A DNA stretch of 64,000 nucleotides from Mediterraneibacter catenae. GTDB lineage: Bacteria > Bacillota > Clostridia > Lachnospirales > Lachnospiraceae. The position numbers and the translations under genes are program-made. Under the pieces are notes generated by a model. It was not told where the DNA came from. It was given only the letters and a program-made list of their open reading frames with translations, and did no database searches. Shown one piece after another: positions 41,267 to 44,775 of this stretch (its first letter is position 1; every line of letters begins with the position of its first letter). The stretch covers positions 62,001 through 126,000 of the forward strand of contig NZ_VMSO01000004.1 of the NCBI RefSeq assembly GCF_008691045.1. The letters run 5' to 3'.

Positions 41267-41308
41267 TTTGAAATTCAAAATAAAAATAGAGTGCAATCTA
41301 ATTTTCTA

Positions 41309-41336
41309 TTGACAAACCGGATTTTTGAGATATAAT
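41309..41336 (+). promoter_or_regulatory. Promoter for the T-box/cstA unit
   Basis: TTGACA at 41309-41314 and consensus TATAAT at 41331-41336, 16-base spacer. Confidence 0.8.
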
Positions 41337-41354
41337 AAAACCGGATTGAAAAAA

Positions 41355-41706
41355 GCCAATGCGAAGAACAGGACAGGACTTCTATGGCCGGTATGCTTTC
41401 AGAGAGTTTCCGTATGGTGCGAGGAAACAGCATGGTCAGGAACGCTATCACCTGCGAGCAGTCAGGGCGAAAGGAATCAGGGCAGATCCACAATAAACAG
41501 GAATGCCATGAGCTGATTAACCCGGACCGGAATTCCCCCGTTATAGGGAAATCTGTTGAACCGCAGTATAAAACCGATGATCCGGATACATATGCGGGAG
41601 ACAGGACAGAGAGACCGGAAAATATCCGGTAACAGAAGTGGTAACGCGGAGGAAAAGCTTCGTCTTCTGACAGAGTAATCTGGCAGAGGGCGATTTTTTT
41701 GTGCCG
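41355..41706 (+). ncRNA. T-box leader upstream of cstA
   Basis: Stem I is recognisable. GCGAAGAACAGGACAGG lies at the base, AGAGAG (41401-41406) and GGTGCGAGG (41416-41424) in the distal part, and ATGCTTTC pairs with GAAACAGCAT. The specifier loop 3' strand reads AACGCTATCA before CCTGCGAGC, making ATC (41447-41449, Ile) the likely specifier. The T-box proper is GAAGTGGTAACGCGG at 41635-41649. A GC-rich terminator (41661-41692) with a T-run to 41700 follows. Binding of uncharged tRNA should allow antitermination. Confidence 0.8.
41661..41700 (+). terminator. T-box-controlled terminator
   Basis: CGTCTTCTG-ACAGA pairs with TCTG-GCAGAGGGCG (several G-T pairs), followed by ATTTTTTT. Confidence 0.8.
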
Positions 41707-41807: not shown

Positions 41808-43496
41808 ATGAACACTTTAGTAATCGTACTGATCGCCGCTGTATGTCTGATCGCAGCATATGCGCTGTACGGACGATGGCTGGCGAAGAAATGGGGAATC
41901 GACCCGAAAGCAAAGACACCTGCAGTTCTTCATAATGACGGGCAGGATTATGTGCCGACAGACGGATGGACAGTATTTGCCCACCAATTTTCGTCAATAG
42001 CAGGTGCAGGACCGGTTACCGGAGCAATACAGGCCGCTGCATTCGGATGGCTGCCGGTACTTCTGTGGATCATCCTCGGAGGTATCTTCTTCGGTGCTGT
42101 TACAGACTTCGGTGCACTGTACGCAAGTGTGAAGAACGACGGCAAATCCATGGGACTTCTGATAGAGAAATATATCGGAAAAGCAGGACGTAAGCTGTTC
42201 CTGGGATTCTGCTGGCTGTTCTGCTTGATCGTTATTGCTGCGTTTGCAGATATGGTGGCTGATACATTTAACGCATATGTAGTGACAGACGGCGTACAGA
42301 CACTTGCTGAAAATGCTACTGTAAACGGTGCGGCAGGAAGTATTTCCCTGTTCTTTATTCTGTTCGCGGTGGTATTCGGTGTAGTACAGCATAAAGTACA
42401 CTTTACCGGATGGAAAGAAGTGGTATTCGGACTGGTATGTACGGTACTTGCATTTGTATTTGGTATGAACTTCCCAGTGATCCTGGGAAAAGATATGTGG
42501 GTATACATTGCATTTATCTATATCTTCCTTGCAGCGGTGCTGCCGATGTGGTTTGTGATGCAGCCACGAGACTACATGTCCACATTTATGTTTGTCGGAA
42601 TGATCGCCGGTGCGGTGCTCGGCCTCCTGTTTGCGCATCCGTCAATGAACCTTCCGGCATTTACAGGATTCCAGAATGAGAGCTTGGGAACACTTTTCCC
42701 GATCCTGTTTGTAACGGTTGCCTGCGGTGCGGTATCCGGATTCCACAGTCTGGTATCCTCCGGTACTTCATCTAAGACAATTTCAAATGAGAAAGATATG
42801 CTGAAAGTCGGATATGGCGCAATGGTACTGGAAAGTCTTCTGGCTGTTATCGCTCTCTGTGTGGCAGGTGCTGCGGCAGGGGCGGACGGAACAGCGGCAG
42901 TGGGAACACCGTTCCAGATCTTCTCATCAGGAGTTGCAGGATTCCTTGAGATGTTCGGTATCCCGGTCTATGTGGCACAGAGCTTCATGACGATGTGTGT
43001 ATCCGCGCTGGCATTTACCACGCTGGATTCTGTTGCGCGTATCGGACGTATGTCCTTCCAGGAGCTGTTCAGCGTGGACGACATGGAACACGCTGAGGGA
43101 TGGAGAAAAGTCCTCTGCAATAAATATTTTGCGACGATCATCACACTGGTATTCGGCTACATACTGACACAGGTGGGATACTCTAATATCTGGCCGCTGT
43201 TCGGAAGTGCCAATCAGCTGCTGAGCGCACTTGTCCTGATCACACTGTGCGTATTCCTGAAAGTGACAGGCAGAACGCTTAAGACGCTCGTCCCGCCGTT
43301 CGTGATCATGCTGATCGTGACATTCTCAGCACTGGTGCAGAGATTTATTTCTCTTGTAAAAGCATTCTCAGCCGGAACGGGAGTGTTCATGGTTGAGGGA
43401 CTGCAGCTTATCGTAGCCGTGCTTCTTATGATCTTGGGAGTGACGATCGTGGTTACTTCCGGGAAAGAACTTATAAAGAAGAAAGCTGCAAACTAA
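41808..43496 (+). CDS. cstA: Carbon starvation protein CstA-type peptide/pyruvate transporter
   Basis: A 562-residue membrane protein with about 16 hydrophobic segments. The CstA hallmarks are present: ALYGRWLAKKWGIDPKAKTPA, NDGQDYVPTDGWTVFAHQFSSIAGAGPVTGAI and a C-terminal segment with GSANQLLSALVLITL. The family imports peptides or pyruvate. AAAGGAGAGAGG precedes the start. Its leader is a T-box, so expression should respond to an uncharged tRNA rather than to carbon starvation. It ends overlapping the convergent gene at 43493 by 4 bases. Confidence 0.92.
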   Translation: MNTLVIVLIAAVCLIAAYALYGRWLAKKWGIDPKAKTPAVLHNDGQDYVPTDGWTVFAHQFSSIAGAGPVTGAIQAAAFGWLPVLLWIILGGIFFGAVTDFGALYASVKNDGKSMGLLIEKYIGKAGRKLFLGFCWLFCLIVIAAFADMVADTFNAYVVTDGVQTLAENATVNGAAGSISLFFILFAVVFGVVQHKVHFTGWKEVVFGLVCTVLAFVFGMNFPVILGKDMWVYIAFIYIFLAAVLPMWFVMQPRDYMSTFMFVGMIAGAVLGLLFAHPSMNLPAFTGFQNESLGTLFPILFVTVACGAVSGFHSLVSSGTSSKTISNEKDMLKVGYGAMVLESLLAVIALCVAGAAAGADGTAAVGTPFQIFSSGVAGFLEMFGIPVYVAQSFMTMCVSALAFTTLDSVARIGRMSFQELFSVDDMEHAEGWRKVLCNKYFATIITLVFGYILTQVGYSNIWPLFGSANQLLSALVLITLCVFLKVTGRTLKTLVPPFVIMLIVTFSALVQRFISLVKAFSAGTGVFMVEGLQLIVAVLLMILGVTIVVTSGKELIKKKAAN

Positions 43497-44020
43497 TGCT
43501 GTTTATATCGCAGCCAGTCAGTCAAAAGCAGCGCGCCTGTAAAGACAGTGCAGAAAATCAGGGCATAACCGAGCTGGGGCATCGTCTGTGCGATCGGTGC
43601 ATTGTGTCCGAAGACTGTGAATGTCACCGCAAGAAAGATGATCAGGCTGCCGATATAGAAAAGAACCGCGCCGCGCAGGAGCAGGAGTGCTTTTGCGCGG
43701 TACATTTTTGCAATATCCACAGGGGCAAAGCGGTATTTGATGAGAACAGGCAGTACGCGGCCCTGCTCGCGGATCTGGAACAGCGCGCTGTTTAGCGGCG
43801 GCAGGGTGATCACAAAGCATAGAACAAACCACGCAAGATCAAAAGTGTAAGATTCCACTGCGGCATCGGACGTCCCGATATTCTGAAGGGCGTGGGATGC
43901 ATTGCCCGCCACAGAGGCATCCAGTGCTGTCCTCAAAAAGAGAGAAAAGAAAGCGAGAATCAGCAATACCCGGAAAGTGGTACATTTCCTGTGTTGGTTT
44001 TCATATTTGTAGTAATTCAT
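43493..44020 (-). CDS. Small membrane protein of the ABC operon
   Basis: A 175-residue protein with about four hydrophobic segments (about 17-35, 63-84, 112-140, 151-168). It is the last gene of the five-gene minus-strand operon and is likely a membrane component paired with the preceding ATPase. ATG 44020 (MNYYKYENQ) has AGGAGGTG upstream; an ATG at 44035 overlaps the previous stop. The family is not recognised with certainty. Confidence 0.7.
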   Translation of the reverse strand: MNYYKYENQHRKCTTFRVLLILAFFSLFLRTALDASVAGNASHALQNIGTSDAAVESYTFDLAWFVLCFVITLPPLNSALFQIREQGRVLPVLIKYRFAPVDIAKMYRAKALLLLRGAVLFYIGSLIIFLAVTFTVFGHNAPIAQTMPQLGYALIFCTVFTGALLLTDWLRYKQH

Positions 44021-44031
44021 GGCGCACCTCC

Positions 44032-44775
44032 TCATCTATCCTTTGATCTTGTGCCATTCGTGTGTTCCAGATCCAACAGATCCCTGATGCGCGGAGCTGC
44101 CTTGCCGGTGTATTCTTTGTATTTATCATTAAGAGATTCTCTGGGAGCACATTCGACGAGACGGCCGTTCTCCAGGATCAGCAGATAGTCCGCGAGACGA
44201 TCTACATCTTCCGTGATATGAGTGGACAGCAGAATCCCCATATCCTGATCGAGCAGTTCTCCAAGCAGAGAGAGAAACTCATGGCGGAACACCGGATCGA
44301 AACCTTCAAGCGGCTCATCAAGGATGAGAAAATCCGGATGATGTGCCAATGAGAAGCAGATCTGAAGCTTCATAAATTCCCCTTTGGAGAGTTCATAGAT
44401 CCGTTTGGACGGACTTACGTTCAGTCTGTCCAGATATGCGGAGTAATCCCGAACCGACCAGTCCGGATAGAATTCTCCATAGGTAAGGCCGTTCGATGCG
44501 ACCGACTCCTCCATAAAGAACGGACATTTTTCGCTGATATAACCGAGCTTCTGCCGATACAGGACAGGAGAAGCTTTGAATGAGATTCCGTCAATCTGTG
44601 TCTCTCCGGAAAATCCCTGAGAGACTCCGCTGATGCAGTCCAGAAGAGTTGTCTTGCCGGAACCGTTGACTCCGGCAAGGACGTAGAAGTAGCCGCTCTC
44701 CATGGAAAATGAGATGCTGTCGAGACAGAAATGACGGTATCGTTTTGTAATATTTGTGCAGGTAAACGACGACAT
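44032..44775 (-). CDS. ABC transporter ATP-binding protein
   Basis: A 247-residue ATPase. Walker A is GVNGSGKTT, Walker B LILDEPLEGFDP and the switch His STHITED. The signature region is YELSKGEFMKLQ (LSKGE in place of LSGGQ), as in the YtrB/YtrE/bacitracin-type subfamily. It lies just downstream of the GntR gene and upstream of a membrane protein, so these two may form a transporter distinct from the first ATPase/permease pair. Confidence 0.88.
   Translation of the reverse strand: MSSFTCTNITKRYRHFCLDSISFSMESGYFYVLAGVNGSGKTTLLDCISGVSQGFSGETQIDGISFKASPVLYRQKLGYISEKCPFFMEESVASNGLTYGEFYPDWSVRDYSAYLDRLNVSPSKRIYELSKGEFMKLQICFSLAHHPDFLILDEPLEGFDPVFRHEFLSLLGELLDQDMGILLSTHITEDVDRLADYLLILENGRLVECAPRESLNDKYKEYTGKAAPRIRDLLDLEHTNGTRSKDR

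Follow-up and report, generated by a model that had tools for sequence, protein, structure and literature searches.

The cstA gene of Mediterraneibacter catenae is very likely controlled by a T-box riboswitch that recognises tRNA-Ile(GAU) and acts by transcription attenuation. The gene lies within the window, by which we mean the whole 64,000-nucleotide stretch of contig NZ_VMSO01000004.1 that was analysed, and the coordinates of the switch and its surroundings are collected in Table 1. Sequence, conservation and compensatory base changes show every RNA part, ATC as the specifier and the connection with cstA, and by analogy with other members of the T-box class the leader would respond to tRNA charging. 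Judging from the promoter, transcription should start near 41343. When tRNA-Ile is charged, the terminator would form and cstA would be off; uncharged tRNA-Ile would pair through its anticodon with ATC in stem I and through its ACCA end with the TGGT bulge, and the tRNA-bound leader would then hold the antiterminator, so that cstA would be read. A palindromic DNA site that also occurs at ilvN-ilvC may add a second input in the window's lineage. Many related gut bacteria have the same switch in front of cstA, which makes a role of CstA in the synthesis or acquisition of isoleucine probable.

Table 1. Features of the cstA promoter, leader and gene (positions are those of the window).
Feature	Position	Strand	Basis
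Candidate operator AATAGAGTGCAATCTAAT	41285-41302	.	11/14 of AACAGA-N2-GC-N2-TCTGTT; six bases 5' of the -35
Sigma-70-type promoter TTGACA-16-TATAAT	41309-41336	+	12/12 positions
T-box stem I with specifier loop	41361-41459	+	sequence, RF00230 alignment, 57-leader alignment
AG bulge AGAGAG in stem I	41401-41406	+	read from sequence
Distal loop GGTGCGAG (GGTG-type) in stem I	41416-41423	+	read from sequence
Specifier triplet ATC (Ile)	41447-41449	+	RF00230 alignment; 57/57 distinct leaders
Stem II	41461-41467 with 41521-41527 (region 41461-41550)	+	compensatory changes
Stem IIA/B pseudoknot	41528-41530 with 41538-41540; 41533-41537 with 41546-41550	+	IIB arm, compensatory changes; IIA almost invariant
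Stem III	41614-41630	+	each of its 6 pairs changed on both sides
Antiterminator	41634-41668	+	local fold of 41632-41670 is exactly this structure, -12.2 kcal/mol; its helices 97-99% paired
T-box sequence	41634-41649	+	read from sequence
T-box bulge TGGTAAC	41639-41645	+	TGGT is complementary to tRNA ACCA
Intrinsic terminator	41662-41700	+	local fold of 41658-41701, -20.1 kcal/mol, z -5.4, 0/200 shuffles as stable; paired in 97.5% of cells across 57 leaders
cstA, 562-aa CstA-family transporter, behind the T-box leader	41808-43496	+	PF02554, E 1.3e-143

A promoter, a stem I with AGAGAG, a T-box sequence and a terminator had been proposed in front of cstA in the initial annotation, and all of them were located between 41309 and 41700. 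The gap that holds them is longer than the 470 bases first given, as 541 bases separate the end of the upstream vanZ-like gene (41266) from cstA. Behind cstA the next gene-sized frame, at 43493-44035, is convergent. An 82-codon open frame on the + strand (41384-41632) lies wholly within the T-box leader and is most likely spurious. The specifier loop reads ACGCT-ATC-A, followed by a CCTG strand, and its 3' strand deviates from the RF00230 model by a gap. The bulge differs from the usual T-box form, TGGNACC, in having AAC for ACC. The antiterminator and the terminator share bases 41662-41668 and are therefore mutually exclusive. A simple terminator scan of the leader found no terminator, because its rule permits no internal mismatch and the stem has one. 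The global minimum-energy fold of the whole leader favoured the terminator state and did not reproduce the stem I of RF00230, and we therefore took the RF00230 model, the local folds and the covariation as the basis for the structure instead.

The Rfam scan that had been proposed as a check gave, in a relaxed search, a full-length match to RF00230 (model positions 1-219) at 41355-41670 on the + strand, with an E-value of 2.5e-19 and a score of 86.1 bits that is about 7 bits short of the 93-bit gathering cut-off, which is a curation threshold and not an anatomical feature, and a strict one for this genome. Searched at the gathering threshold, the whole 64-kb window yielded only a tRNA and a SAM riboswitch, and the cstA T-box was missed. 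The SAM riboswitch (RF00162, 31717-31814, + strand) scored 69.2 bits, over its gathering score. As 7 of the 15 T-box matches in the same genome, including one before ileS, also fall below the RF00230 gathering score, the sub-threshold score is no argument against a T-box before cstA. Annotation at the Rfam cut-off would miss about half of this genome's T-boxes. With the match, all of the RNA parts and the covariation described below, the T-box class initially given to the leader was borne out.

In order to follow the leader across relatives, cstA loci were taken from public genomes and confirmed by tblastn, and the best 80 of 270 were kept. Among these best 80 there were 56 loci with a T-box, one with a remnant, four from which the sensor was deleted, 17 spirochaete loci without a T-box and two without upstream sequence (L069 and L123). 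Stem I was present in 55 of the 56 T-box loci and was cut by a contig end in the other. The alignment (A1) was made up of the window, 53 of the T-box loci and three further loci (L018, L129 and L131), giving 57 distinct leaders, 51-91% identical to that of the window, and at every aligned locus cstA followed the T-box directly. Changes on both sides were found at 41 of the 56 scored base pairs, and 217 cells had such changes against a mean of 78.4 after shuffling. The proportion of paired cells was 89.7%, compared with 36-52% (at most 51.5%) when the partners were slid, the structure having been drawn from the window sequence, which somewhat favours this paired-cell figure and not the figure for compensatory changes. 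The helices of stem II, the IIA/B pseudoknot and stem III had 84-98% of cells paired, and the weakest part was the middle helices of stem I, with 68% paired across the set. Covariation in the terminator was slight: both partners had changed in 2 of 12 pairs, a level reached by 116 of 500 shuffles. The bulge TGGT was invariant (57/57) and was followed by AAC in 50 leaders, ACC in five and ATC in two. The features of the leader that weigh against T-box control of cstA are thus the score below gathering, the AAC in the bulge, the model gap in the specifier loop and the 68% pairing in the middle of stem I.

The ATC (Ile) specifier originally read from this leader was upheld, since ATC occupied 41447-41449 in all 57 leaders while the flanking bases varied, and no other codon was found in the loop. 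The gap by which the specifier-loop strand departs from the RF00230 model does leave room for a shift of frame, in which GCT (Ala), TCA (Ser) or TAT (Tyr) would be the specifying codon. We consider such a shift extremely improbable, given that the triplet at -1 was TAT in 31 leaders, CAT in 25 and GAT in one, and that at +1 was TCA in 36, TCC in 20 and TCT in one, against the constancy of ATC, and given that the TBDB description puts the specifier 2-4 bases from the end of the bulge (PMC7778990). The same description gives AUC as 0.99 of Ile specifiers (PMC7778990). A pattern search of this draft genome (G000) found no tRNA-Ile(GAT), which is a further point against T-box control of cstA; perhaps the gene is missing because rRNA operons are absent from drafts. 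tRNA-Ile(GAT) with discriminator A, a base that can pair with the T of TGGT, was found in 6 of 23 genomes of the genus and adjoined tRNA-Ala(TGC) in five of the six. The sole other T-box of the window's own genome whose specifier was read by eye as ATC precedes ileS (gene name given by eye from the translation), and an acetolactate-synthase-like gene is under a T-box whose specifier, again judged by eye, is GTA. On the same contig, outside the window, lies a T-box with a TGG specifier, also read by eye (L009, G000:C34:48767-49022), preceding genes that by eye are metal-dependent alcohol-dehydrogenase-like and permease-like, an unusual target for Trp.

A T-box before cstA1 was tabulated in 2015 for Bacillus methanolicus MGA3 (PMC4342826, Table 5), where the authors, according to the part of the report that concerns this gene, doubted that it regulates and thought it a possible remnant, a reading they also gave to a break in RNA-seq transcription between the start site and cstA1 (PMC4342826). 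Such a break would also fit attenuation. The doubt published for B. methanolicus, together with the loss of the sensor in four relatives, is what favours the explanation that the T-box studied here is likewise a relic with no effect on cstA. We regard this as very improbable in view of the compensatory changes throughout the leader, the invariant specifier and TGGT, the retained terminator and the position of cstA directly behind it. The sensor losses do indicate that T-box control is dispensable in the four close relatives concerned, and to that extent they count against control by the T-box. In these four (L051, from NZ_LT635549; L059; L070; and L072) the sensor upstream of cstA is deleted and the promoter is kept; in L051, L059 and L072 a bare terminator hairpin lies close behind the promoter and should silence cstA. 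At L121 the T-box is eroded, with a recognisable antiterminator and terminator, a bulge that reads TGGCAGC and the stem I motifs lost.

The pairing of T-box and cstA is common in one branch of the Lachnospiraceae and rare elsewhere. Of 398 genomes sampled across the phylum, 135 gave a CstA match at E <= 1e-40, and 2 of the 60 upstream regions read from this sample contained a T-box at E <= 1e-3 (L129 and L131). The CstA proteins of these two loci are 57-58% identical to that of the window and that of L018 is 52% identical, and ATC is the specifier at all three. The CstA proteins of gut spirochaetes (L104-L120) share about 81-88% identity with that of the window, and no T-box motif was found in the DNA upstream of cstA at these 17 loci, six of which were also scanned with Rfam. 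In a CstA tree, which was made by a quick method and has some long branches, the spirochaete proteins formed one clade (99) that joined two T-box loci of Lachnospiraceae type (support 86). The nesting of this clade beside T-box loci suggests, from the protein sequences, that cstA was transferred into spirochaetes without its switch.

The control of cstA had initially been ascribed to tRNA charging rather than carbon status, and this exclusion was not borne out. In the window's lineage a second conserved element flanks the promoter. The palindromic box (Table 1) lies upstream of the promoter and so is a DNA site. Scoring at least 10 of 14 positions, it was present at the same place by the cstA promoter in 31 of 78 distinct named upstream regions, compared with none of the 78 for the reversed motif; before cstA at Blautia-, Enterocloster- and Fusicatenibacter-type loci it was not seen. 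The exact core ACAGANNGCNNTCTGT occurred in 46 of 47 genomes of the genus, at 74 sites versus 11 for the reversed control. Forty-two of these sites precede ilvN-ilvC, in 42 of the 47 genomes, and 40 of the 42 have a TTGACA-type promoter upstream, the box lying between the -10 and the start (for example at about 2809-2824 of L210). In the window's genome the single exact copy is the one before ilvN-ilvC. Six sites precede cstA, and among the other 26, of which 17 were inspected, five are upstream of a gene for the gamma subunit of a pyruvate/2-ketoisovalerate oxidoreductase (one gene tested, a match to TIGR02175) and one is before leuB. These associations are regulon-like and, as read from sequence, mark the box as a candidate operator of a branched-chain/2-oxoacid regulator. 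The ilvN promoters of L219, L223 and L273 carry an extra half site, ACAGAGTGCAG, in the -35/-10 spacer beside the full box, which suggests two binding sites.

The product of cstA scored 480 bits against the PF02554 profile (cut-off 27) and clearly belongs to the family, and it reached 239 bits against NF011590, the equivalog for the E. coli-type pyruvate/proton symporter CstA, whose cut-off is 1188 bits. A search by sequence for solved structures of CstA relatives found none. The same genome has a second CstA-family gene, on contig C27, and no T-box was detected at E <= 0.1 in the stretches around it.

The Ile specifier and the ilvN-ilvC box make supply of pyruvate or of an isoleucine-pathway 2-oxoacid the leading reading of what CstA does, to which we give a little less than an even chance. 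CstA would bring in pyruvate or another 2-oxoacid (2-oxobutyrate or 3-methyl-2-oxopentanoate) as an input to the isoleucine branch; the T-box would open cstA when isoleucine is short, and the operator would be common to ilvN-ilvC. The genes that share the box (ilvN-ilvC in 42 of 47 genomes, the oxidoreductase gamma gene in five and leuB in one) point to 2-oxoacid and branched-chain amino-acid supply. This agrees with E. coli CstA, which transports pyruvate with a Km of 242 uM, only pyruvate and bromopyruvate having competed among the compounds tried (PMC7730263). Also supporting this reading are, in the window's own genome, a threonine ammonia-lyase (448 bits), IlvC and the acetolactate-synthase-like gene under the GTA T-box; PF00585 was absent from that genome and no citramalate synthase scored over its cut-off. 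Isoleucine auxotrophy, considered as another explanation, was unsupported because threonine ammonia-lyase and IlvC are present. On the other side, the window's CstA falls far below the E. coli equivalog cut-off, pyruvate feeds valine and leucine too and yet the specifier is Ile only, and the Blautia-, Enterocloster- and Fusicatenibacter-type loci have no box before cstA.

T-boxes commonly control amino-acid transporters, and this counts for the role originally suggested for CstA, the import of peptides as an amino-acid source, with isoleucine charging reporting amino-acid hunger. Defects of peptide utilisation in cstA mutants of Campylobacter and Salmonella, as cited in PMC7730263, are in its favour as well, whereas E. 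coli CstA was found to be specific for pyruvate (PMC7730263) and nothing recognisably peptide-related was seen beside the shared-box sites inspected. The functional clue came instead from the genes that share the box, leaving peptide import unsupported and, in our judgement, unlikely. We think it somewhat less doubtful, and still well behind the supply of a 2-oxoacid, that CstA imports isoleucine itself, or pyruvate as a source of carbon and energy with Ile-tRNA charging as a general gauge of starvation. An Ile-specific T-box kept over the whole set of 57 leaders would suit either form, and the genome encodes a BrnQ homologue whose 5-kb surroundings gave no T-box at E <= 0.1. The presence of BrnQ also means that a branched-chain amino-acid importer is not missing, and no CstA homologue is known to carry isoleucine. 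A more specific form of the leading reading, in which this branch of CstA carries an isoleucine-pathway 2-oxoacid (2-oxobutyrate or 3-methyl-2-oxopentanoate) and is controlled both by tRNA-Ile charging and by a branched-chain/2-oxoacid regulator of Lachnospiraceae, is speculative, and we rate it as improbable as peptide import; if true, the substrate would be one not known for the CstA family.

The specifier of a T-box is an accepted clue to what an uncharacterised transporter does. Here, in a major family of gut bacteria, it offers isoleucine as a physiological handle on a widespread transporter family whose name comes from carbon starvation and whose substrate is disputed, with pyruvate and peptides as the contenders. 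A T-box before cstA, elsewhere set aside as a remnant, is in this broad lineage under selection. Within the open-access literature, the main T-box surveys and the TBDB tables being outside the search, the B. methanolicus report was the sole direct precedent for a T-box before cstA. As far as open-access searches reach, what is new is the assignment to isoleucine, backed by signs of selection, the distribution of the switch within Lachnospiraceae, and the box that cstA and ilvN-ilvC have in common.

By its sequence, the cstA leader is an ordinary Ile T-box of the transcriptional type, and what is unusual is the gene that it precedes. It has the same parts in the same order as the transcriptional T-boxes of RF00230 with stems I, II, IIA/B and III (for example, ileS leaders), the same place for the specifier and the same antiterminator/terminator switch, and it departs from their norm in the AAC of the bulge and the score under gathering. 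Unlike their usual targets, the gene behind it is cstA and not a synthetase, biosynthetic or classical amino-acid transport gene. The (T-box)-cstA1 arrangement of B. methanolicus likewise has a T-box upstream of a CstA-family gene (PMC4342826), but no amino acid is assigned to it in the part of that report that concerns cstA1, and the likeness lies in the arrangement as described there. CstA and BtsT of E. coli, a species among the control genomes matched, belong to the same protein family (PF02554) as the window's CstA. The E. coli CstA has 701 aa compared with 562 aa in the window's protein, which scores below the equivalog cut-off, and E. coli cstA is described as controlled by cAMP-CRP and CsrA (PMC7730263, PMC2784878), in contrast to the T-box found at cstA in the window.
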